Assembly (NCBI RefSeq): GCF_003086295.3
Contig: NC_092044.1
Span: forward strand, 3,746,843-3,810,842
Length of the DNA stretch: 64,000 nucleotides
From: Arachis hypogaea
Lineage: Eukaryota; Streptophyta; Magnoliopsida; Fabales; Fabaceae
Direction: 5' to 3'
Shown: positions 3,125-45,824 of the stretch, piece by piece
Position numbering within the stretch: position 1 is the first letter of the stretch
Layout: each line of letters begins with the position of its first letter
The notes under the pieces: model-generated
Told to the model about the DNA's origin: nothing
Databases searched by the model: none
What the model saw: only the letters and a program-made list of their open reading frames with translations
Program-made: the position numbers and the translations under genes

Positions 3125-4605
3125 GCCACTCCTGGGTTCAGGAAGGAGGTCTTGCCCCTGATAAACCGTTGGATTCTACTGTTTTATCTCGTCTCAAGCA
3201 ATTCTCTGCGATGAACAAGTTAAAAAAGATTGCCATTTGAGTACGTACCCGATCCACTGGTTATATGATTTTTGTTCTATTCGTTTAATTTTTGAGCTCA
3301 AGAAACTATAGCATCTCTTTTCAACACTACAATTTTCATATAACATTAATGAAACAAACTCATGTAATGGATAGAAAAGCACAGTCATTTTAAACTGAAA
3401 CTGTTGTAGCATTAGGCTGTAATATTGGTTTAATTTCAGAAAATTGATATCCTAGTTTAGTAACTGCGATTCTTTTTGTTCCTTGTTCTAGATTTGTATG
3501 TGTTATTTGGTATGACTTGCAATGTTGTCCCTTGACAGGTAATTGCTGAAAGTCTCTGAGGACGAAATTACAGGACTGAAAGAAATGTTCTCGATGATAG
3601 ACACAGATAATAGTGGACAGATCACCCTTGAGGAACTGAAAAAGGGTTTGGAGAGAGTGGGTGCTAATCTTAAAGAATCTGAGCTTCTATGGTTAATGGA
3701 AGCAGTAAGTGCCTTGCATACTATCCAAATTGGCATTTCTATGTAGGCATGTTTCTTGCACTTATTAGTGTGTTGTTTAGTTCTGTAATTTTTTACAATT
3801 GTTTTAGTTGGAATTGGTTATGCTGTAAAATGATTCTTGATAGTTCCTCTATAAGTGATTTTGACATAAAGAAAAAAATTTTATTCTCCCAAAATCAATT
3901 AACTGACTCTGGTAGTTAGAAACCAAACATGTGTAAAATGGGGGAGATCAACTACTGGGGGATGAGGATCATTCTAGGTCCCCCAAACGGTGTTCCAACG
4001 ATGCATTAATGGATTTATTTGTAACTGAATATACTTCCATTCTTTTGATCGGTAGTAAACTTGGCATTGTACTATTTTTGCACTATTGTGTGCAGCTTGT
4101 TATTATTATATTTGGTGTTTCATGTGATTTACCCTTTTAGCTTTCTCCTTTAAAATCCAGGTAGACGTTGGTAACAGTGGTACACCATAGATTATGGTGA
4201 ATTTATAGCGGCAATGCTTCATCTAAACAAAATCCAGAAGGAGGATTGTCTATATGCTGCCTTCACTTATTTTGACCAAGATGGTAGTGGATACATTACA
4301 AAGGAAGAGCTTCAACAAGCTTGTGAAAAGTATGGAATTCTAGATGGTAACATAGATGATATAATACGCGAAGTTGATAAGGATAATGTAAGACATTGCA
4401 TCATATTATTATTATTGTTATAAGGACTTGGAACTTATTTTATGTCAGCTCAATATTTAAGATAGAATTGGTACACAGCATTTTTTCCTCCTTAATAAAC
4501 TTGAAATTATGTACTATTTTTCAGGATGGACGCATTAATTACAGTGAGTTTACTACAATGATGCAAGAAACTGACTTTGGCAAAATTGGTCTACCTAAAG
4601 CATGA
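3125..4605 (+). pseudogene. Calcium-dependent protein kinase (CDPK) fragment, C-terminal half
   Basis: Four exons with intact GT-AG borders (about 3125-3240, 3539-3704, 4161-4387, 4525-4605) encode the end of a CDPK. The first gives the last kinase-domain residues ([15 protein letters not shown]) and the junction segment ([13 protein letters not shown]). The second to fourth give EF hands; three are clear: [26 protein letters not shown] and DKDNDGRINYSEF. The kinase domain itself is absent. It is broken in at least three places: a stop at 3238-3240, a 2-nt loss near 3560 in the auto-inhibitory segment, and a 2-nt gain near 4190 in the second EF hand. Introns are kept, so genomic DNA was copied rather than mRNA. 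It lies wholly inside the CACTA element, consistent with gene capture. Confidence 0.85.
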
Positions 4606-4976: not shown

Positions 4977-5728
4977 ATAAAGAGCCTAAGTGCGCTTTTT
5001 TATTTGAATCACTATCACTGGAATCCATTGTGAACGCATATCATAGCCAATTGGATCTTCAATAATCTTTGAAATTCGAAGAATAAAGAACTACCTACGA
5101 AGTAGTAGTTGGGGAATTGCATTGCCATCAACATCGATTAGGTTATAATCATCATCACCAGACAAGTATGGGAATTATTATTGTTCAATTGACCTGGATT
5201 TCGACATATATATGGGACACTACTATACTAGGCAAGTGGTAGTGTATGTATAACATTAATTTCTAATATTTATTGATAAATTTATTAATTGTTAAACTTT
5301 TTAAATGAGGCTGACTAGTTAAATGGGGGAAGAGAACAAGAACTGATCTAATTATATATTTGTACCCTTTAAGTTTAGTAAGTTTATCTAAAATGAGAAA
5401 TTAATAACATAATAAAATAAGAGGTTAATAATTAATTTTGTGACTCAATTCATTGTAATTTACTAATTTTGGACTTATATATAGCCCCGTTTTCTAAAAA
5501 AAAATGGAACAAGCTCCTTCAAAGAAAAAGAATTAGTAAAATAGAAAGCACATACAATTAAAGTTATAAATTTAATAATAATTAATTAATTATTTTATTA
5601 TTTTATCGATTTTTATTTTAGCTGATCTAAATTTTTAAGATACAAAGCAAATTGGATTTTCAAGTTGCAATAAGTAAGGACAATAATATGTGATCATCGT
5701 CGGATATATATAAAGCCAAGTCTCTGGT
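4977..5728. other. Intergenic A+T-rich stretch, no gene seen
   Basis: Between the CACTA right end and the DNA flanking the viral insertion. No splice-supported coding exon or repeat was recognised apart from short A/T runs. Confidence 0.3.
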
Positions 5729-5812
5729 GGCTATGTCTATGGTAACTAGTGGTGGCTAAGGTTACACTTTTAACTTAAAAGTGTAACCTTTCACAAAGAA
5801 AAGCGTCACCTA
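5729..5812. repeat. Left flank of the viral insertion: palindromic, CACTA-like subterminal motifs
   Basis: Contains a perfect 11-bp-arm palindrome (GTTACACTTTT, 5-bp spacer, AAAAGTGTAAC) at 5761-5787, then AAAGCGTCACCTA. These short motifs resemble the AAAAGCGTAGCCT and AAAAGTGTAGCC subterminal repeats of the large CACTA element at 37.7-48.0 kb. The right flank (12940-13075) carries related motifs in inverted orientation (CACTTTTAGTGATACGCTTTC; GGTACC, GGCACC). The viral copy may therefore sit inside an older DNA element. Confidence 0.4.
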
Positions 5813-6232
5813 ATGGAAAAAAGTAAATTAGAAGATTTAAGAGAAGAAATAATTAAGTTATCAAAATTAATAGATCAAAAATTAATGATTTTAACTAATG
5901 TCAACTGTAATGACACCGAATTCTTAAAATCAATACAAAATGATTTTTCTCAAAATCTTTATTTTACTATAAGTTTTATTGAAGGACTTCAAAAACCTGA
6001 AAAAACTTATTTTTCACACAGAATTTCTAAAAAATGTTACCATGGAAATGATTCCCCACATCTATATCATACTTTTAACCCACAATTAAATTCTATAGTA
6101 GATATGCTTGAAGAAATATTAACATCCATAAAATTTCAAAGAAATAAGGAAAAAGAGAATCCCAAGGAAGAAAAATTTCAAAACATAATTAACATAACAG
6201 ATTTAAAAGTAAAACCACCACTAAAATTATGA
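5813..6232 (+). CDS. Viral small protein, candidate virion-associated protein
   Basis: 139 residues, intact. The N-terminal third is a charged amphipathic helix (LEDLREEIIKLSKLIDQK) likely to form a coiled coil; the C-terminus is basic and ends in KPPLKL. A short coiled-coil protein with a basic tail placed just upstream of the coat gene fits the caulimovirid virion-associated (ORF III) protein, which links capsids to transmission and movement factors. Its stop codon overlaps the coat-protein start (ATGA at 6229-6232), the usual caulimovirid coupling. Identity rests on position and shape, not on a recognised motif. Confidence 0.6.
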   Translation: MEKSKLEDLREEIIKLSKLIDQKLMILTNVNCNDTEFLKSIQNDFSQNLYFTISFIEGLQKPEKTYFSHRISKKCYHGNDSPHLYHTFNPQLNSIVDMLEEILTSIKFQRNKEKENPKEEKFQNIINITDLKVKPPLKL

Positions 6233-7578
6233 ATATTGAAGAAAAATTAGAAGAAGTTACAATGCTTTTTAAACAATTAAAAATGGCTCAAGAAAATAAT
6301 ATTATGGAACATGGTTTTCAAATAGAGGAAGAATTAGTAAATTCTGAAAATATAGAAAATGAAGAACACATTCTAGATTATTCAAGTGACGAAGAACCAG
6401 CTATTCCAATACAAGTAAAGAATGAAGCTGGAACATCTAAGGATAATCAATCTCAATTTAAATGGGAAACAGGTTTTGATAATTATGCTTTTAAAAAAGG
6501 GTTTATAAATAAAGATTCAAAATATGCAAAAATACCATCAAAATACGTTCCTAAAATCCAGGAAATGAAAGGAGAAAGAATGCTCGATTTAGACTGCAAA
6601 AAGAACGAAAAAGAAATTTTCGAAAACTGGTTGAATTCCTTCTTATTAGAAGCCTTTACTAATCCAAAACTGGGTGAATTGTCTGGAAGGGACATTTGGA
6701 ATTACATAGGGTTTCATACTAAAGGAACTATAAGAGATTATATGACATCAATAGAAAACCAAATAATAGAAGAATTAGAAACAAAAACAACAGCTTATGA
6801 TAAGATATTATATATAATGATGATTCTATATAAAGAATTTTTTGGAAAAAATATTATATATCATAGACAAGAAGTCTATAATAAAGAATATCAAGAAGCA
6901 AAAAACCATTTAGCTAATATTCAGATATATGATTTATGTAATGTGGAGTCCTATATATGTGAATATAGAATACATTATTACAAATTAAAAGAAGAAGATA
7001 AAAATCATTATCTTAGTATGTACATAACAAAACTTCCATATCCTGCTAATGAATTTATAATGGGAAGATTTATAAGAGAAATAAATAGAGGAACAATTGA
7101 AAATAATTTTGGTGGAGCAACCTCTGCTATAAGAGAGGAAATAAAAGAACGTTGTATGCAAGAAGCAACTCAAAAAAGATTTGCAAATATAATCAGAATT
7201 TGCTGTCAGGATAATGAAGAGATACCTCAAAAATATGGTCTTAATAAAAATCTTCAAAGAAAAAGAAAATATCAATTTAGAAGAAGAAAATACTATCCAA
7301 ACTGGAGAAAAAAGAGATATTTTAGAAAAGAAAATAACAATAAAAACAAAAGACAAAGAAATAACTATTGCCCGAATAAAAAAGAAAATTGTAAATGTTG
7401 GTATTGCCAAGAAGAAGGACACTACGCAAATGAATGCCCGAAAAAGAAGGATAAAAAGGATCTTACTAAACAAATAGAAATTGCTAAGTCTTGTTTCATG
7501 GAACCATTAGAAGAATCTGATGATAACTTAGACTATATTTTTGAATATGTCTCGGAAACAGACTCAGAGACTGAGTAA
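6229..7578 (+). CDS. Viral coat protein precursor
   Basis: 449 residues, intact. It has the caulimovirid coat layout: an acidic N-terminal region (many Glu/Asp, residues 10-65), a central capsid region, a long Lys/Arg-rich stretch (about 340-385), a retroviral-type CCHC zinc knuckle with CWYCQEEGHYANEC at about residues 389-402, and an acidic C-terminal tail (EESDDNLDYIF to SETDSETE). The knuckle and basic tract bind viral nucleic acid; acidic ends are usually removed or modified in mature capsids. It overlaps the upstream ORF by 4 nt and the polymerase ORF by 38 nt in another frame. Confidence 0.9.
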   Translation: MNIEEKLEEVTMLFKQLKMAQENNIMEHGFQIEEELVNSENIENEEHILDYSSDEEPAIPIQVKNEAGTSKDNQSQFKWETGFDNYAFKKGFINKDSKYAKIPSKYVPKIQEMKGERMLDLDCKKNEKEIFENWLNSFLLEAFTNPKLGELSGRDIWNYIGFHTKGTIRDYMTSIENQIIEELETKTTAYDKILYIMMILYKEFFGKNIIYHRQEVYNKEYQEAKNHLANIQIYDLCNVESYICEYRIHYYKLKEEDKNHYLSMYITKLPYPANEFIMGRFIREINRGTIENNFGGATSAIREEIKERCMQEATQKRFANIIRICCQDNEEIPQKYGLNKNLQRKRKYQFRRRKYYPNWRKKRYFRKENNNKNKRQRNNYCPNKKENCKCWYCQEEGHYANECPKKKDKKDLTKQIEIAKSCFMEPLEESDDNLDYIFEYVSETDSETE

Positions 7579-9538
7579 TAATGCTACATTTATTACTATA
7601 AAAATAACAGAAAAGTTTATAAATGCTTTCATAGATTCTGGGGCAACACAATGCTTTGCTAGTTCAAGTATAAAACTTGATTGGAAAAAATTAAAGAAAC
7701 CATTAAAAGTTAGAATAGTTGACAAATCAATACATAAAATTGACCAAAAAGCAGAGATGGTTGAAATTTTTATTCAAAATTATAGGTTCATTGTTCCATC
7801 TATATATATGTTAGATTCTGGAATGGATTTTATCATAGGAAATAACTTTTTAAAGCTATATCATCCATTCATTCAAGAATTAACATATATAGTTTTAAAA
7901 GCTCCACACGATTCTTTAATAAATCAAAAATCAAAACGTATAAAAATACCAACTACTACTATAGATAAGATCTTAAAGTTTAAAATATTTTCTATATTAG
8001 AAACATGTTATTTAAATCTATACTTTCAGATAAATATTCCAAAAAATAATCTTGAAATAAAGATAGAAGAACTCTTGGATGAAATTTGTGCTGAAAATCC
8101 TTTAGATATTAAAAATACAAATAACGAATTAGTAAGCATTAAATTAAAAGATCCCACAAAAGAGATAAATGTTCCAAATAAAATTCCTTATTCCGCGAGA
8201 GATAGAGAAGAGTTCTCATTAGAGTGTAAAGACCTTTTGGAAAAAGGAATTATAAGATTAAGTAAAAGTCCTCATGCGGCTCCAACTTTTTACGTTGAAA
8301 ACAATAATGAAATTAAAAGGGAAAAACGAAGAATGGTAATAAACTATAAAAAAATGAATGAAGCAACTATTGGTGATGCTCATAAACTTCCAAGAAAAGA
8401 TTCTATTTTAGAAAAAATCAAAGGAGCAACTTGGTTTTCATCTCTTGATGCAAAATCAGGATATTGGCAACTTCGTTTAGACAAAGAAACAAAGAAATTA
8501 ACTGCTTTTACTTGCCCAACAAAGGAATCAACAAGTGTGTTGCTTTATGAATGGAATGTATTACCATTCGGATTAAAGCAAGCCCCAGGTATTTATCAAA
8601 GATTTATGGAAGAAAATCTAAAAGAGTTAAATGAATTTGTTTTAGTATACATTGATGATATACTAATTTTTACAAAACAGGATAAAGAAGATCATCTTCA
8701 AAAATTATTAATAGTTTTAGAAAGATGCAAGGAAAAAGGATTAGTTCTTAGTAAAAAGAAAGCAAGAATAGCAAAACAAGAAATAGAGTTCCTTGGATTA
8801 ATTCTATCTACTCAAGGAAAGCTAAAACTTCAACCAAATATTCTAGAAAAGGTAAATTTATTTCCTAATAAAATAGAAGATAGAAAACAATTACAAAGAT
8901 TTTTAGGGTGTATAAATTATATTTCTGATCAGGGATTTTTAAAGAATATAACAGAATACACTAAAAGCTTATTTCCAAAAATAATTACTAAAAAAGTATG
9001 GAAATGGGATGAAAAAGATAGCATACAAATTCAAAGAATTAAAGAATTATGTGAAAAACTTCCAGAACTTTATATTCCAGAAGAAAATGACTACTTAATA
9101 GTAGAAACAGATGCTTCAGACATAACCTGGTCAGGATGTCTAAAAGCTAAGAAAGCTATAAAAAGTTTGGAACAAGAAAAAGAATCACTAGATTCTAAAT
9201 ATCCCCCAAAGGAATTACTTTGCAGGTATATTTCAGGGACTTTTACTCCAACAGAACAGAGATATACTACTCATGAAAGGGAAACTCTAGCAGCAATTAA
9301 ATCTCTTAAGAAATGGAAAATTGATTTACTACCCAAAGAATTTACATTAAGGACAGATTCAAGTTATTTAACAGGATTCATACGATATAATTTGAAAGTT
9401 GATTATAATCATGGACGATTGGTAAGATGGCAATTATTTTTGTTACAATATCCAATAAAAATTGAATATATTAAGGGTGACAAAAATGTTATTGCAGATA
9501 CATTAACAAGAGAATGGAGTTCGTCTACAACGCATTAA
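7541..9538 (+). CDS. Viral polyprotein: aspartic protease, reverse transcriptase, RNase H
   Basis: 665 residues, intact. An aspartic-protease active site (FIDSGATQC, residues about 30-38) is followed by the reverse transcriptase, with the FSSLDAKSGYWQL motif and the catalytic YIDD box at about residues 370-373. The RNase H domain carries the ETDAS, ERETLAAI and LRTDSSYL motifs in order. Domain order and length match caulimovirid ORF V. The catalytic residues I can see are all present. The end overlaps the start of the transactivator ORF by 25 nt. The protein copies the pregenomic RNA into DNA, primed by tRNA-Met at the site at 12922. Confidence 0.95.
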   Translation: MNMSRKQTQRLSNNATFITIKITEKFINAFIDSGATQCFASSSIKLDWKKLKKPLKVRIVDKSIHKIDQKAEMVEIFIQNYRFIVPSIYMLDSGMDFIIGNNFLKLYHPFIQELTYIVLKAPHDSLINQKSKRIKIPTTTIDKILKFKIFSILETCYLNLYFQINIPKNNLEIKIEELLDEICAENPLDIKNTNNELVSIKLKDPTKEINVPNKIPYSARDREEFSLECKDLLEKGIIRLSKSPHAAPTFYVENNNEIKREKRRMVINYKKMNEATIGDAHKLPRKDSILEKIKGATWFSSLDAKSGYWQLRLDKETKKLTAFTCPTKESTSVLLYEWNVLPFGLKQAPGIYQRFMEENLKELNEFVLVYIDDILIFTKQDKEDHLQKLLIVLERCKEKGLVLSKKKARIAKQEIEFLGLILSTQGKLKLQPNILEKVNLFPNKIEDRKQLQRFLGCINYISDQGFLKNITEYTKSLFPKIITKKVWKWDEKDSIQIQRIKELCEKLPELYIPEENDYLIVETDASDITWSGCLKAKKAIKSLEQEKESLDSKYPPKELLCRYISGTFTPTEQRYTTHERETLAAIKSLKKWKIDLLPKEFTLRTDSSYLTGFIRYNLKVDYNHGRLVRWQLFLLQYPIKIEYIKGDKNVIADTLTREWSSSTTH

Positions 9539-10866
9539 ATCAAGAAATTCAAAAATACGAACAAGAACTCGAAAAATGCAAGCATTGTCAGCAAATAAGG
9601 ACACAGATCCAATCCCTCAAGAAGGCCATCGAAGCAATGAAATCAACACAACAACCAAAACCATCAGAGTTCAGCCAGCTAAGCGTGGTGGACAAATCAG
9701 GTGAGGAAAAAATTCCAGAAAATAAAACAATTGCTGAAATTATCAAAAAATCCACCCAAGATAAAAAATATTATGTAATTTATAATGGCCCCATGAAAGG
9801 AGTATATGATGCCTGAGAAAAAGCAGCACCATTTACACAGCAATCAAGGATAATTCATAAAGGAGGGTTTTTAACACTGGAAGAGGCAAAGGAATCTTTT
9901 AGAGAATATGAAGCTCTTCATCCAGAGCAAACCCTAAAAAGAGTAGATAAAGCTCCAATTCAAACCCAGAGAACATGGATAATAAGAAACATTCCTACAA
10001 GGGCTGAAATCAAGGAAAAGAAAAGGGTTTGTAGATCAAATCTCAGAGAAACCCTTAACATAGTCTTGAATTGGACTGCAGAAAAGAGGGCGATCTTGGG
10101 ATATTATCCTATTGCCAAAGAACAGCTAACAAAGCTGGTTATATTTCCAGAGGCTTCCCCATCTGACACCTATCAGTTTTTCTAGTATGGATTAATTGAT
10201 ACAATCTTAATTTTTAATGATTTGAAAATTATTAGTGAGTTTCCTGCAGGATTTATTGATGCAGTAAAAAGATTTAAAAATATGATTGACAACGTAAATC
10301 CAAGGGATATATCCCTAAAATTTACTAATAGTCAACCTCTTTTTAATGAAGAAGAAGAATGCTTGGTTCCAGCACATCAAGTGATCTTCATGTCCGTCTT
10401 CCCAAGAAATTTTCAACCAATTGATCAAGTTCAAGATTTAACAATCTACAGTCATGAAGGAAGACTAGCTAGCACACTAGCAAGGGTCTTCGAAAGAACT
10501 CAAAAGATAACAAGGGAATCTCACACAAGAATCAATTATAAAAGCAGAAATACTTTGCTTGTGTCCAGTAAAAGGAATGAAATTGAAGAAAGAGAGATGA
10601 GACTCTTAGTGGAATTTGAATCAGCATTCTACAACTTATCTGGACTCTTAGAAAAGCTCCCCGAAGGGATAAAGAGGAATCTCTGCTATTTGATAAAAGA
10701 CAGAGAAGACCACAAGTGCCAGCTATGTGTCTCAGAGTTATCTGAAGAAAGCATTAATAAAACGGAATCAACCCACATGATAAAGGAAGAAGACAACGCA
10801 TCTGAAGGTCACATGATGAAAGAGGAGGACAGCACATCTGAAGCATCTCTCAACATTATTGCATAG
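9514..10866 (+). pseudogene. Viral transactivator/inclusion-body protein gene, two in-frame stops
   Basis: One reading frame runs from 9514 to 10866 and is interrupted only by TGA at 9814-9816 and TAG at 10183-10185, with no frameshift between the pieces. The N-terminal piece has a coiled-coil-like helix and ends in a segment (YYVIYNGPMKGVYDA) recognisable as the conserved core of caulimovirid ORF VI proteins, which let ribosomes reinitiate on polycistronic viral RNA and build inclusion bodies. The later part keeps plausible protein sequence and a short repeat near the end (two similar MIKEED and MMKEED segments). Both stops are of a kind a single transition can create, as expected from decay of methylated cytosines in silenced DNA. 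As it stands it would give only a 100-residue product. Confidence 0.85.
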
Positions 10867-11000
10867 TGACGTAAGCGCTTAGGTCATAGAGCACCAACAA
10901 TGTAGCTGGTGCAAGATAATAAACAATAACGTAAGCAATGACGTCATAAGAAGGGTAAGGATGGGAATTGTCCATCAGACCCAACCATTATAAATAGGTT
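10865..11000 (+). promoter_or_regulatory. Pararetroviral pregenomic RNA promoter with as-1-like element and TATA box
   Basis: TATAAATA lies at 10990-10997. Upstream, at about 10928-10946, is a paired motif (AACGTAAGCAATGACGTCA) shaped like the CaMV 35S as-1 element, with two TGACG-like half sites; another TGACGTAAGC sits at about 10867. TGACG sites bind TGA-class bZIP factors. Position between the transactivator and the movement protein matches the full-length-RNA promoter of the family. Transcription would start about 30 bp after the TATA box. Confidence 0.75.
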
Positions 11001-11142
11001 GCTTAGGCAATTGTAGAAGGCATCAAACAATAGAAAGCAGAAGGCTAAGAGTACTCATATGCTAGGAGAGCAAGGAGGAAGCGGCCGAGGCGATTCTATA
11101 GTTTGAAGAAGAATTCCCTTAGGAAATACCAATACTAAACTC

Positions 11143-11180
11143 CCCTCTGGAGTTAGTATCTACAATCTCCCCTCTGGAGA
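11143..11180 (+). repeat. Direct repeat of a CTCC...GGAG hairpin motif in the viral leader
   Basis: CTCCCCTCTGGAG occurs twice, about 25 bp apart, between the TATA box and the poly(A) signal. Each copy can pair CTCC with GGAG. It lies in the part of the transcript expected to be repeated at both RNA ends, so it may matter for leader structure; that role is inference. Confidence 0.55.
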
Positions 11181-11207
11181 TAAAAACATCTTATATAAAA
11201 TATTCTA

Positions 11208-11213
11208 AATAAA
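11208..11213 (+). terminator. Viral poly(A) signal AATAAA
   Basis: AATAAA lies about 210 bp downstream of the viral TATA box and just before the movement-protein gene. In this family the signal is bypassed near the 5' end and used on the second pass round the circular genome. Confidence 0.65.
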
Positions 11214-11260
11214 GGAAGTTTTTCTCCAGATAGGTATGCCTTTATCTTAATCTCATAGTT

Positions 11261-12178
11261 ATGAATTATTTAGAAAGTTTAGAATTAACGGAAGAATCTG
11301 ATTATTATAGACTATCTGCCTTATTAGATAATGAAAAACAGGCTGTTCTAAAAACAGAATTAAATCTCAAATCAAATGAAAATTTTAATAAACAAAATCT
11401 TTTAAAAGAAGTTTTTAATAGAAAAAATATAATATACTATGGAAAAATTCAACTTGAAGCCCCTATAAAGATAAAATCTGCTAATGGAGAACTTGAAATA
11501 GCTCTGATAAATGATGAAGAATTGAGTAAACAGATTGAGAAAATTAAGGATCAACAAAAAAGATCTAAAATTGGATGGATTCATATTAGTACTATACAAG
11601 TCTTAATCAAATCTACATATATGAAAGGAATTAATTCACCAATAAGCTTAGCAATTTGTGACAAAAGAATTACTGATGACCCAATAGATCAAATAATTGG
11701 AATTGTTCATGAAAATTTGGCAAACGTAAATGTTAAATTCAATGCCCATCTTGGATATGCTATACCTTTATCAACTGAAAATCTTGGAAGATCTATAAGT
11801 TTGGCTTATAAATTTCACAGAAAGAATCTAATGGAACAAGACGAAGAACCATTTTCAATTACATATGCAATAAATTATGCTTTAACAAATAGCCATCATA
11901 GTATAATATTTAAAAACAGAGAAAGAATTTATGTCGATGAATTATTTCAGAAAATTGTAAAAATAGAAATACCAAAATATAAAGCTATTAAAAACCCAGT
12001 TCTTTTACTAAAAGAACCATCAGGAAAATTAGTTTCATCGAATTTTCAAATAAGAGAATCCAAAATTAATAGCCCTTTAAGTTTATCTAAGTTAAAAATT
12101 AAAGAAGAAAATTCTGAAATAAAAGAATTAACAAAAAAGGTCGAAAAATTAAATGAAACCCTAAACACTAAGTTATGA
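11261..12178 (+). CDS. Viral movement protein
   Basis: 305 residues, intact. First ORF after the promoter, the usual place for the caulimovirid movement protein of the 30K superfamily. The middle holds a hydrophobic beta-rich region (IGWIHISTIQVLIKS, then a GYAIPLSTENLG segment) typical of the 30K fold; the end is a charged coiled coil (EIKELTKKVEKLNETLN), the part that in CaMV binds the virion-associated protein. It overlaps the next ORF by 4 nt (ATGA at 12175). It would act at plasmodesmata. Confidence 0.85.
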   Translation: MNYLESLELTEESDYYRLSALLDNEKQAVLKTELNLKSNENFNKQNLLKEVFNRKNIIYYGKIQLEAPIKIKSANGELEIALINDEELSKQIEKIKDQQKRSKIGWIHISTIQVLIKSTYMKGINSPISLAICDKRITDDPIDQIIGIVHENLANVNVKFNAHLGYAIPLSTENLGRSISLAYKFHRKNLMEQDEEPFSITYAINYALTNSHHSIIFKNRERIYVDELFQKIVKIEIPKYKAIKNPVLLLKEPSGKLVSSNFQIRESKINSPLSLSKLKIKEENSEIKELTKKVEKLNETLNTKL

Positions 12179-12411
12179 CAATAAATAAAGAGAAAATATA
12201 TGTAACCTATCAAGACAAGAAACAAGAGCTCTTTGAAAGAAAAAATCGGTTGAATTATTTACAGTTTTCTGAAATAAATCAAAGAGCATTTGAAACTCTA
12301 AAAATAATCTATGACAAATTGAAAGGAGAAGTTGAAGAGTTAGAAAAATTAATAGAATCTCTAGAAAATAATGATGAATCGATGATAGAATTTGCAGAAA
12401 TTCTAAGATAA
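12175..12411 (+). CDS. Viral small ORF, coiled-coil protein of unknown role
   Basis: 78 residues, intact. Rich in Glu, Lys and Leu, with heptad-like spacing (LKGEVEELEKLIESLE). Coupled to the movement-protein stop through ATGA. By position it could equal the soymovirus ORF Ib, but I recognise no motif. Confidence 0.6.
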   Translation: MTINKEKIYVTYQDKKQELFERKNRLNYLQFSEINQRAFETLKIIYDKLKGEVEELEKLIESLENNDESMIEFAEILR

Positions 12412-12414
12412 CTA

Positions 12415-12606
12415 ATGAAGTATACAAAGATTGAAAGACCAGAAAATAAAATAAAAAGAAAAAGTGCGAAAAAATTAAAAAGTAAAATAAAGGAATATAA
12501 AAGAGAATTAAATAATCTTCAATTCGAAATTAATGACCTTATAATAAAAAGGATAGAAATAAGAACAAATATAAACAAGTTGGAGCTAAACTTAAAAAAT
12601 TTATAA
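12415..12606 (+). CDS. Viral small ORF, basic coiled-coil protein
   Basis: 63 residues, very Lys-rich (about a quarter of residues) with alternating hydrophobic positions, consistent with one long helix. It starts 3 nt after the previous stop and ends directly against the next start codon. Function unknown. Confidence 0.5.
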   Translation: MKYTKIERPENKIKRKSAKKLKSKIKEYKRELNNLQFEINDLIIKRIEIRTNINKLELNLKNL

Positions 12607-12834
12607 ATGTCTGGAACACCATATTATGATTTAAAAGAATTAAAGCTGTTAAAAGAAAAAATGGAGAATGAAATTGAAAAATTAAACAGATATTTAGAAA
12701 CAGGAGAAAGTGAAGAAATAAAAGAAGTTATTGAGGATTTGAGAAATTATATTAAAGAAAAAGACAAACAGATAAAAGATTTTATATACAATAATCCATG
12801 CAAAAAAGAATATTATAAACTAAAACAAGATTGA
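12607..12834 (+). CDS. Viral small ORF preceding the primer-binding site
   Basis: 75 residues, charged helical protein (KLLKEKMENEIEKLNRYLE). Its ATG follows the previous TAA without a gap. It is the last ORF before the tRNA primer-binding site. Function unknown; such tight packing fits translation by reinitiation. Confidence 0.5.
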   Translation: MSGTPYYDLKELKLLKEKMENEIEKLNRYLETGESEEIKEVIEDLRNYIKEKDKQIKDFIYNNPCKKEYYKLKQD

Positions 12835-12921
12835 AAAATTATGGTCAATACTTTTTATAAAGCACCTATACAAATAGAAATTTCGAAAAAGAAATTAAAA
12901 GAAAAATTCAAATTAAAAATT

Positions 12922-12939
12922 TGGTATCAGAGCCAAGTT
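12922..12939 (+). promoter_or_regulatory. tRNA-Met primer-binding site of the pararetrovirus
   Basis: TGGTATCAGAGCCAAGTT matches the complement of the 3' end of plant initiator tRNA-Met (TGGTATCAGAGCC plus most following bases), the standard minus-strand primer site of Caulimoviridae. It lies about 85 nt after the last small ORF, not in the RNA leader, and within about 20-150 nt of the right edge of the insertion. Confidence 0.9.
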
Positions 12940-13075
12940 AACGATTAAGGGTAACACATTCTCTTTAAACAACACTTTTAGTGATACGCTTTCAGTTACC
13001 AAATGTCCACAACTAATTGGTAAACTTCTTTGTAGTCACCATAGGTACAATAAGATAGTAGGTACCATAGAAGGC
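12940..13075. repeat. Right flank of the viral insertion with inverted CACTA-like motifs
   Basis: Contains CACTTTTAGTGATACGCTTTC and several GGTAC/GTCACC/GGCACC motifs that resemble, inverted, those in the left flank at 5729-5812. The exact virus-host junction cannot be fixed by eye and may lie inside this interval. Confidence 0.4.
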
Positions 13076-13079
13076 ACCT

Positions 13080-13920
13080 ATATATAATTATCTATATCTA
13101 TATCGTTGGAGATGAAAACTAAGAAACTGAAATTGAGAGATGGAAATTGAAAGATAGAGACTAGATTAAGTTTCTGTGTTGTATTTAGTATAAAATATAT
13201 TGGATTGAATTATGTTTTAGTATTATGTTTAATTTAAGATAAATATAGAGATTAAAGAGTAAATTTAAAATTTGAAAAGTTAAATAAGAATATTTTTAAA
13301 AAATAATATTATTAAAATTTCAGTTTCTATGGTAACAAATTTTAGTTTCTTGTATTCCTATTTTCTAGAGATATTAAAATGACTAAAATTTTAAATTTTA
13401 GAATTGAAATTTTAATTACGGTATCTAATTATCAAATATAACACTGAATCCTAATTCTTTAATCTCAATCTCGATTTTTAAAAGCAAACGCCACCTTAGA
13501 TCCAAGAATATTTGGCATATGTCTGACCGAGCTACAATATAATTGGTGAAGTGCAAGACAACAATAATCTCCAAAATTATTTACGATTTCATAAAAGTTT
13601 TTTTTAAAGCAAACATGAATTCATATAGGTTTATTTTTGTCTATTAAAATTCTATTTTTATTTAAAAAATAAAATAATAAATATTGAACTCTAATTAATA
13701 ATAAAAATTTTAATATTATCTTATAAAATAATCTCTCTTGAAAACTTAACCGATTAAATAGAGATACATAAATACATATATCAAATCTATTGAGTAATTC
13801 CTCTTTCAACTATAGTTATAACATACTCAAGTACGTGAACAAGTTTAAAAATACATTCAATATCTTGTACAAGTTTACATCTAGAGATAATATATATAAG
13901 TAATAATAAACCCTAAACTA
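13080..13920. other. A+T-rich intergenic stretch, nothing recognised
   Basis: Long A/T runs between the viral insertion and the 3' side of the receptor kinase. Short open frames here have no family features. Confidence 0.3.
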
Positions 13921-43226: not shown

Positions 43227-45824
43227 ATGCCAAAGGATTGGATGGATCTACCGAGGTATAGCGAAGAGTATATCAATGGTGTTATTAGTTTCTTAGAATT
43301 TGCATACTCTGAGGGAGAACCGGATAGACAACAAATTCAATGTCCTTGTAAGAGGTGTTGTAACATTGAGTGGTATAGAAGAGATGTGGTATTTGACCAT
43401 TTAGTAGCCGACGGGTTTGTTAAGGGATATAGAACATGGATTAATCACGGGGAATGGACAATCCCAATGGTGGTTGATGATGACACGGATGATGAAGGTG
43501 CACGTGATGACATCGAAGGACTGCTTAATGATGCATTTGGAGATCATGCTGAGGGTGTTACTGTAGGTCCAAATGAAGAGGCTAAAAAGTTTTATAATTT
43601 AATAGATGGGGCAAGTCAAGAGTTATACCCGGGCTGCAAGAAATTTTCTACATTATCTTTTACCATCCGCCTGTACTTGTTAAAGTGTTTGCACGGTTGG
43701 AGCAATGCCTCCTTCACTTCCCTTCTAGAGCTATTGAAAGAGGCAATGCCTGAAATTAACATACCTCCATCTTTCCATAAGACGAAGGCTATGATAAGAG
43801 ATTTAGGTCTGGATTATAAAAAAATCGATGCTTGTCCTAATGATTGCCTCCTGTATAGGAAAGAACTAAAGGATGAAACACAATGTCGTGTGTGTGGAAC
43901 ATCTCGATATACTGAAAATTCTAGTGATAATAGCGAGAACCAACCTCACAAGAAAGGTCGTCCTATTCCTGCAAAGACGCTGAGATACTTTCCTATAATT
44001 CCAAGACTTCAGAGATTATTTATGTGCTCAAAAACGGCAGCTAGTCTGAGGTGGCATGATGAGGAGCGCGTTAAAGATGGGACGTTAAAGCATCCTGCTG
44101 ATGGCCTGGCATGGAAGAACTTTGATGAAATGAATGAAGATTTTGCAAAAGAATCACGCAATATTAGACTAGGCTTGTCAAGTGATGGGTTCAACCCATT
44201 TCGTAGCATGAATATTTCATGGAGCACGTGGCCCGTAATGTTGATGGTATACAACTTGCCCCCGTGGATGTGCATGAAACCTGAATATTGTATGCTTTCT
44301 TTGCTTATTCCTGGGCCACAATCACCTGGCAAAGATATTGACGTGTATCTACAACCATTGATAGAAGACTTGAAGTAGTTGTGGGAAATAGGGGTGGAAA
44401 CTTATGATGCATCAAAGAATGAGAATTTTCAAATGCGAGCAGCTCTTTTGTGGACAATCAATGATTTTCCTGCGTATGCTATGTTGTCTGGGTGGAGTAC
44501 AAAGGGAAAATTGGCTTGCCCTTGTTGCAACAAAAATACCTCTTCTTTACAACTAAAACATAGTCGGAAGACAGTTTATATGGACCATCGTGTCTTTTTA
44601 CCCATGGATCATCCATGGAGAACCAATACAAGGTCTTTTAATGGGAAGCAAGAATTAAGACCCCCTCCACCTGTTATAGAAGGAACGGAAATTTTTGAGA
44701 TGCTACAAAATGTTGAGAATGTTTTCGGGAAGAAGCAAAGTACATCAAATAGTTTCTTATGGAATTGGAAAAAAAGATCAATTTTCTTTGAATTGCCTTA
44801 CTGGCACAAGAACCCACTGCGTCACAACTTAGATGTCATGCACATAGAGAAGAACATACTTGACAGTATAATTGGAATCCTTTTGGATATCCCAGGCAAG
44901 ACAAAGGATCATCTGAATGCTCGATATGACTTAAAAGATTTGGGGATCTGGAAAAATCTTCAACCAAAGGAGGTGAATAATGGCAAGAGAACAAAGTTGG
45001 CAAAGGCATGCTTTTCTATGACTGCTGCAGAGAAGTCAATTTTTTGTGGTGTTTTGAAGACAACAAAACTACCTGATGGTAGTGCTTCGAATATATCACG
45101 GTGTGTACATCTAGGAGAAAGAAAAATTTCTGGGTATAAGACCCATGATGCTCATTTTTTGTTACACTACTTACTACCAGTACCGATTAAAAGCATCATT
45201 CCTGATCACGTGGCCATTCCGTTGATTCGACTAAGTTCCTTTTTTCGTTGCTTATGCAAAAAGTTAATCACACTGGAAGAGATAGATCGACTGGAGTTAG
45301 AGATTGTGGAAACATTATGCCACCTTGAGAGGATCTTTCCCCCTAGTTTTTTTGACATAATGGTTCATCTTCCCATTCATTTAGCAAATGAGGTGAGATT
45401 GGGTGGTCCGGTACAGTTTCGTTGGATGTATCCTCCAGAAAGGTACATGTGTACATTAAAGTCGTATGTACGCAACAAAAGTCGCCCCGAAGGTTCTATT
45501 GCAGAGGCATATCAGGCTGAAGAGTGCTTAACTTTCTGCTCAAGATACTTGCATGGAGGTGTGCGAACAAGACTTAATAAGCGACCTCGGAATGATGATG
45601 ATCCTAATGACGACGAAGTTTTGTCTTCAAAGTTGTTTTCTAACAAAGGTCGTTCGTTAGGCGTGGGAAATGGAGAACCAATTAATCTCGATGACATATC
45701 AACTTCTCAAGCCCATGTGTATGTATTATACAATTGTTTCCACATCGCATGGGGCCAATCAATTTCGGAAGAGTACGAATGGCTCTGGTATACTTATTTA
45801 ATATTTGTGCTGGGATTTGTTTAG
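43227..45824 (+). pseudogene. CACTA transposase (TNP2 type), interrupted by one in-frame stop
   Basis: One frame of 865 codons broken only by TAG at 44376-44378. Residues 1-75 form the transposase-associated domain (MPKDWMDLPRYSEEY, then CPCKRCCN). The tnp2 catalytic region follows (HGWSNASFTSLLELLKEAMP, WSTWPVMLMVYNLPPWMCMK), and after the stop continues LWEIGVETYDA and the zinc-like KLACPCCN. The HNLDVMHIEKNI segment and a C-terminal domain with LPIHLANEVRLGGPVQFRWM are intact. Near 45785 the frame probably ends at a splice donor. The stop cuts the protein in the catalytic region, so this copy should be inactive unless read through. The start was chosen as the first ATG before the associated domain. 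Confidence 0.88.

Follow-up and report, generated by a model that had tools for sequence, protein, structure and literature searches.

Fixed ends and 9-bp target-site duplications in an endogenous soymovirus family of peanut, possibly inserted by a host Mutator-type transposase

The 64,000-nucleotide stretch of Arachis hypogaea DNA analyzed here (the window) comes from C9, a contig of 120,499,698 bases in a 2.56-Gb assembly, and carries a linear caulimovirid provirus of 7,365 bases (window positions 5714-13078) that, judged by its sequence, belongs to an endogenous soymovirus lineage of Arachis. The element is flanked by 9-bp repeats at 5705-5713 and 13079-13087, and its relatives elsewhere in the genome also have fixed ends and 9-bp target-site duplications (TSDs). 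We propose that viral DNA was inserted many times by a Mutator-type transposase of the host, after virus replication, and assign this reading a probability of about 0.6. An earlier note on the window had placed the element at 5813-12940; the parts it recognized are there, and the insertion extends beyond those bounds on both sides. The exact ends and the TSD, absent from that note, are the remarkable part.

The fixed ends were observed directly. We took both edges of 50 other copies of the reverse transcriptase (RT) as separate pieces, which with the window copy gives 51 copies, ranked by similarity to the window copy. BLAST comparisons of the first ten place the stop of the right edge at 13079-13090 (10/10) and that of the left edge at 5705-5714 (8/10); once anchored, the edges of these copies agree to the base. 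A genome-wide left-edge search yielded 929 first-look candidates, and all 40 that were scored start between window positions 5700 and 5714. Both ends were found in 43 of the 51 copies, 25 with the ends of the window copy (type A) and 18 with the modules B1 and B2 (type B). The two types share a common core and cannot be aligned past window position 12992 or before about 5764. Five of the six end modules start with GG. When left and right ends were matched in inverted orientation, shuffled sequences did as well 0 (B1), 2 (A), and 14 (B2) times per 1000, and in a separate inverted-end comparison the score was 43, while the best of 1000 shuffles reached 39.

An exact 9-bp TSD occurs in 32 of the 43 copies with both ends, a length within the 8-11 bp given for Mutator-like elements (MULEs) (PMC6446971; here and below, cited papers are represented by passages of their text). 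If the flanks may be offset by as many as 4 bases, the repeat is exact in 21 of 25 type A copies and matches at 8 or more positions in 23, compared with means of 2.3 (maximum 6) and 5.9 (maximum 11) when flanks were re-paired. For type B the corresponding counts are 11 and 14 of 18, against means of 0.0 (maximum 0) and 0.3 (maximum 2). In a first set scored without offset, 17 of 22 type A copies were exact, versus a mean of 0.41 and a maximum of 3 in 2000 re-pairings. Examples other than pure TA include TAACTAGAA, TCTTTATTA, ACATTTCAG, TAGGTTTTA, and ATAATTCAA. The AT content is 96% and 83% in the TSDs and 77% and 75% in the flanks.

To find sites lacking the element, the joined host flanks of four copies, with the element omitted, were searched against the genome, and empty sites with one 9-mer were recovered for three of the four. 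The clearest is that of the C1 copy, for which C11 has an empty site identical at 291 of 307 positions, and at 60 of 60 around the junction, with a single TCTTTATTA. The C4 copy has its empty site on C14 (239/255 identical, with TAACTAGAG). The C3 copy sits in a repeat with empty members on C13 (236/275) and C16 (261/300, single TATTTAATA). Insertion thus added the element together with 9 bp; in the best case that was all.

Ends and cores seem not always to have travelled together. A quick tree built from 49 rows of the adjacent core (12301-12920) does not unite type A in a single clade: one starred clade (99) holds 21 of the 25 type A rows, and L061, L071, L079, and L107 stand among type B rows, L107 in a starred clade (98). 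Forced changes number 5 for A and 3 for B, both upper readings in that the counts take in six rows of unknown type. This distribution seems to call for one or more exchanges of ends between cores, for which the simplest cause would be recombination in the virus. Type A copies lie on C1-C10 (24/25, one with a C15 twin) or on the unplaced contig C149 (1/25), and type B copies are divided between C1-C10 (9/18) and C11-C20 (9/18). From homoeologous pairs and chromosome sizes, C1-C10 would be the A subgenome. No type A copy was seen on C11-C20 among the copies examined, an absence that the ranking by similarity to the window copy prevents from being proof.

Some insertions have unusual neighborhoods. 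Two elements stand head to tail on C5 (C5:98877491 and C5:98884901; junction in L131, 201 bases) with a short TA run between them. The left flank of L085 contains a second element end in inverse orientation. L087 and L120 (on C14 and C9) are copies in similar DNA, in opposite orientation.

The features of the window copy are as follows (+, forward strand; ORF, open reading frame).
5705-5713, unstranded: left 9-bp TSD, TATATATAA, identical to 13079-13087
5714-5812, +: left terminal module with the fixed left end, a degenerate inverted repeat of the right end
5813-6232, +: ORF of 139 aa, after the primer-binding site and before the coat protein (ORF list)
6229-7578, +: coat protein (CP) with a CCHC zinc knuckle, open (ORF list, Pfam)
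7541-9538, +: protease, reverse transcriptase, and RNase H (PR-RT-RH), open
9514-10866, +: transactivator-like ORF VI, interrupted in this copy by in-frame stops
10867-11260, +: intergenic region with TGACG motifs, TATA box, AATAAA, and leader
11261-12178, +: movement protein (MP), open (PF01107, E 2e-38)
12175-12411, 12415-12606, and 12607-12834, +: three small ORFs (78, 63, and 75 aa)
12922-12939, +: tRNA-iMet primer-binding site (PBS), core TGGTATCAGAGC, longer match by eye
12993-13078, +: right terminal module with the fixed right end ...ATAGAAGGCACC, not alignable between types A and B
13079-13087, unstranded: right 9-bp TSD, TATATATAA

The ORF list, Pfam matches, and PBS thus bear out the earlier view that the expected caulimovirid parts lie in one linear copy, the TATA box and AATAAA having been read by eye, and that every ORF is uninterrupted except one, which is ORF VI. 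PR-RT-RH matches PF02160 (E 1e-34), PF00078 (E 1e-38), and PF17917 (E 8e-19). In CP the zinc knuckle passes the Pfam cut-off, and the coat domain PF22909 (E 7e-5) falls under it. The open pieces of ORF VI at 9514-9816 and 10222-10866 share one frame, and three pieces, aligned separately, match in order the transactivator (TAV) part of an Artemisia RT-TAV protein (P0025); no ORF VI piece has a Pfam match over the cut-off. The same holds for the three small ORFs and the 139-aa ORF, the latter placed like ORF III of caulimoviruses. In the intergenic region TGACG motifs at 10867 and 10939, a TATA box at 10989, and AATAAA at 11208 were recognized by eye, and the leader is predicted to fold (z -2.65). 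The 12-base PBS core at 12922 is the sole match in the 64 kb, and none of 100 shuffles contains one. The left module includes a perfect 16-bp hairpin (5758-5790), present in other copies too according to 35 short self-match rows.

The window virus groups with soymoviruses. In a midpoint-rooted polymerase tree (39 rows, covering Soymovirus, Caulimovirus, and an unassigned Rudbeckia virus, and without cavemo-, solendo-, petu-, and badnaviruses) it is sister to Cestrum yellow leaf curling virus (CmYLCV) with support of 100/99. A 100/100 branch separates 20 soymovirus-side rows, among them CmYLCV, soybean chlorotic mottle virus (SbCMV), peanut chlorotic streak virus (PCSV), and blueberry red ringspot virus (BRRV), from 19 caulimovirus-side rows. 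The gene order of MP, small ORFs, CP, PR-RT-RH, and TAV with a large intergenic promoter region is that of Soymovirus, and the PBS follows the MP gene and falls within the block of small ORFs, a soymovirus trait seen for example in WCSV-1, SbCMV, and PCSV (PMC6482551). The soymovirus-like ancestry proposed earlier is thus upheld by both the tree and the PBS. Polymerase identity is 61% to CmYLCV (over 97% of the protein), 51% to SbCMV, and 43% to PCSV; the window virus does not, therefore, represent the soymovirus that takes its name from peanut. Set against the 80% nucleotide rule for species demarcation (PMC13308828), a difference from CmYLCV at 39% of polymerase residues makes it very likely, judged on protein sequence, that the window virus is another species. 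A scan of IMG/VR confirmed no relative. Just before YEWNVLPFG the RT has a few residues more than CmYLCV and SbCMV, which it shares with P0001. P0001 (RT) and P0121 (MP) are 98% identical to the window proteins and have 70 and 57 member sequences; the ENA contigs that carry them are short (1864 and 1262 bases) and may be transcripts. P0122, whose ENA contig has 1416 bases, is an MP with 60% identity and represents another relative.

The family is numerous and in part intact. A search with the window RT gave 63,369 first-look candidates, of which 67 places were scored; protein identity is 97-100%, and 39 places have no stop in the matched frame, so the intact copy is not the rarity that the earlier note had taken it for. 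Two of the scored places lie on C15 and are twins of C5 copies with identical coordinates. At about 1.6-3.6 Mb of C5 and C15, virus copies and MULE domains alike occur at identical coordinates, as after homoeologous exchange. Thirty loci with the best RT protein scores, including the window copy and one twin, were extracted; by length, CP is open in 11, RT in 18, and ORF VI in 15. All three are open in 4, and intact copies therefore exist. Nor is the suggestion upheld that the lineage may be undescribed in this host. De Tomas and Vicient (2022) reported Soymovirus-01, with 391 open RTs and confined to the genus Arachis (PMC9794742), in three species as we interpret the table columns. Both it and the window family are Arachis soymoviruses with many open RTs, and, judging by their description, they are very probably the same. 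The passages on Soymovirus-01 cover RT domains and give no ends, TSDs, or genome structure (PMC9794742), and pararetrovirus repeats have been tabulated for A. duranensis and A. ipaensis (PMC6189423). In the literature searched, in which the cited papers were covered in passages, no caulimovirid is described as having TSDs or fixed ends or as moving by MULE transposition, and nothing turned up on how this family inserts or where it ends. The lineage has very probably been published already, and as far as these searches reach the novelty is insertion like a DNA transposon.

Variants shared among copies carry a coding signature, observed in 28 of the 30 RT loci (the twin and the sole type B copy were excluded; L025 and L027 are untyped by their ends). 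In RT, 33 of 54 shared variants are synonymous versus 0.207 expected (p 1e-10), compared with 56 of 188 private variants (p 0.003). CP, which was not in the search score that selected the loci, behaves similarly in 15 ungapped copies (shared 16/26 versus 0.20 expected, p 4e-6; private 25/76, p 0.009), and ORF VI has 17 synonymous changes among 35 shared variants in 20 copies (0.268 expected, p 0.0065). With gaps allowed, the synonymous share climbs with the number of carriers, from 149/477 (31%) for one to 45/95 (47%) for two, 27/47 (57%) for three or four, and 21/26 (81%) for five or more. Stop gains number 27 among 477 private and 3 among 168 shared variants, and indels 18 and 2 (long indels were left out of the count). 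Coding constraint is thus evident in the shared variants, and most disabling lesions are private to one copy, a pattern that suggests descent of the copies from replicating virus. Four-gamete conflicts, present in RT (193 of 1431 site pairs), CP (65 of 325), and ORF VI (97 of 595), fit recombination or recurrent change. Mean private divergence is 7.1 changes per 1,998 sites (26 copies), or 0.27-0.51 million years at rates of 1.3e-8 to 7e-9, an age biased young by the choice of copies. The earlier note had held that many equally intact copies would mark an ordinary old family; the copies are many, and by this estimate young.

These data bear on whether DNA-only spread would suffice, one provirus having been caught between MULE ends and then spread in the manner of a non-autonomous, Pack-MULE-like element, with no more replication of the virus. 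Such spread accounts for the fixed ends, TSDs, inverted repeats, and host MULE transposases, and it is favored by the two-carrier variants (49 nonsynonymous, 45 synonymous, 1 stop). However, the synonymous share climbs with carriers, disabling lesions are seldom shared, and two end modules on mixed cores require recombination, and we consider this explanation unlikely. A mixed history, in which a few transposase insertions of different viral variants were followed by DNA amplification of some, would suit the intermediate synonymous share of low-frequency shared variants. We rate it lower still: shared stops and indels are few, and the 500-bp flanks of 43 copies give only three weak mutual similarities (67-80%), which therefore indicate no segmental duplication among them.

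The junctions themselves speak to the enzyme. A retrotransposon route or a hijacked transposon-derived integrase has been suggested for caulimovirids (PMC10377300), but LTR (long terminal repeat) elements give 4-6 bp duplications and mostly 5'-TG..CA-3' ends (PMC12440569), and the 9 bp and other termini seen here make an LTR-retrotransposon integrase acting in trans highly improbable. Least credible of all is that end joining passively captured the viral DNA at TA repeats, which is how endogenous caulimovirids are usually explained: many insertions do lie in TA-rich DNA, as for florendoviruses (PMC4241990), yet unlinked sites have the same ends, constant 9-bp duplications, and empty sites without loss or filler, and the family shows neither the variable breakpoints nor the want of a constant TSD that mark end joining. 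Integration of DNA opened at the minus-strand discontinuity was also considered and rejected, as 156 bases separate the PBS start from the right end that follows it, and the TSDs would go unexplained.

The combination of fixed ends, 9-bp duplications, and AT-rich targets agrees with Mutator-type transposition and does not agree with end joining. Under the proposed insertion by a host transposase, viral DNA would pass through reverse transcription, and a MULE-type enzyme supplied in trans would then insert it repeatedly, recognizing degenerate inverted repeats between the PBS and the 139-aa ORF. Two kinds of end module on closely related cores would have been exchanged at least once, and inserted copies would then decay nearly neutrally. 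We infer both the identity of the enzyme and reverse-transcribed viral DNA as its substrate. A scan for MULE transposase domains gave 11,471 candidates in the genome, and all 150 that were scored exceeded the cut-off, some in frames of more than 800 codons. A Pfam scan of the nine ORFs and pieces of the element found no transposase family, and the element is at most a non-autonomous MULE. The peanut element AhMITE1 has a 9-bp AT-rich TSD and an end starting with GGTG, as does the right end here; unlike the viral element it is 205 bp long with 25-bp repeats (PMC9277781). A bolder reading, in which a pararetrovirus lineage took on transposon ends, exchanged them, and thereby came to have a regular proviral stage with precise insertion of its reverse-transcribed DNA by the host enzyme, is in our judgment as likely as not.

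Several observations weigh against insertion by a host Mutator-type transposase after virus replication. One or both ends are missing in 8 of the 51 copies (L043, L049, L067, L077, L091, L097, L105, and L119). The terminal inverted repeats are degenerate, and that of B2 is weak; MULEs without terminal inverted repeats do exist (PMC6446971). Six copies score below 7.9 of 9 for the TSD (L053, L085, L101, L103, L125, and L129), and L061 reaches 7.94, and so counts among those with at least 8, only off register. In L053 and L061 a 9-mer is visible by eye after a small right-end indel, and in the other five no 9-mer repeat was seen. In six type A copies the 9-mer consists wholly of a TA run, and a TSD there is uninformative. 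The C19 counterpart of the window copy lacks the element, and its junction has diverged (176/226). No transposase or autonomous element with these ends was identified, MULEs with matching ends not having been sought by sequence. Likeness to the AhMITE1 repeat is clear for one of six ends (B1 right, 2 of 1000 shuffles as good); for the other five, 42-831 of 1000 shuffles do as well. As to the coding signal, choosing RT loci by best protein scores favors synonymous change, private changes are also slightly synonymous-rich (p 0.003-0.009), and two-carrier variants are only 47% synonymous. The CP shared count drops to 23/45 with more copies and gaps allowed, and in ORF VI private variants (52/138 synonymous) are not separable from shared ones (Fisher p 0.25).

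In the remainder of the window no second viral fragment was detected except one 35-base match of chance type, and the element's ends do not recur with up to 3 mismatches. Two long transposon ORFs lie at 43227-45824, and Arachis relatives of the first carry PF02992 and PF13963; we take this transposon to be CACTA-like. About 1.1 kb to the left of the element, at 3543-4605, ORFs with EF-hand-like stretches are presumably exons of a calcium-dependent protein kinase.

Caulimovirids have no integrase, and a 2023 review terms their entry into chromosomes speculative (PMC10377300). Like florendoviruses and other endogenous caulimovirids, the elements described here are pararetroviruses integrated at TA-rich sites. 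Endogenous caulimovirids are described as mostly fragmented, with short gains or losses at the site (PMC4241990), whereas here the ends are fixed and the TSDs are 9 bp. Insertion like a DNA transposon runs counter to the picture of passive, disorderly capture (PMC4241990, PMC10377300) and explains how near-identical copies could arise without rearrangement. The readable junctions make the question of entry directly testable, their fixed ends and 9-bp stagger, like the clean empty sites, indicating a single class of enzyme. If the lineage did gain a regular proviral stage, this would be, as far as our literature searches reach, the first coordinated integration known in Caulimoviridae. A close parallel is Teratorn of medaka, a piggyBac-herpesvirus fusion that also places a virus genome within DNA-transposon ends and that its authors describe as the first such fusion (PMC10175614). 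Teratorn is a herpesvirus with its own transposase, whereas the peanut element is a pararetrovirus without a transposase gene; it would add a pararetrovirus to the very few known fusions of a virus with a cut-and-paste transposon.

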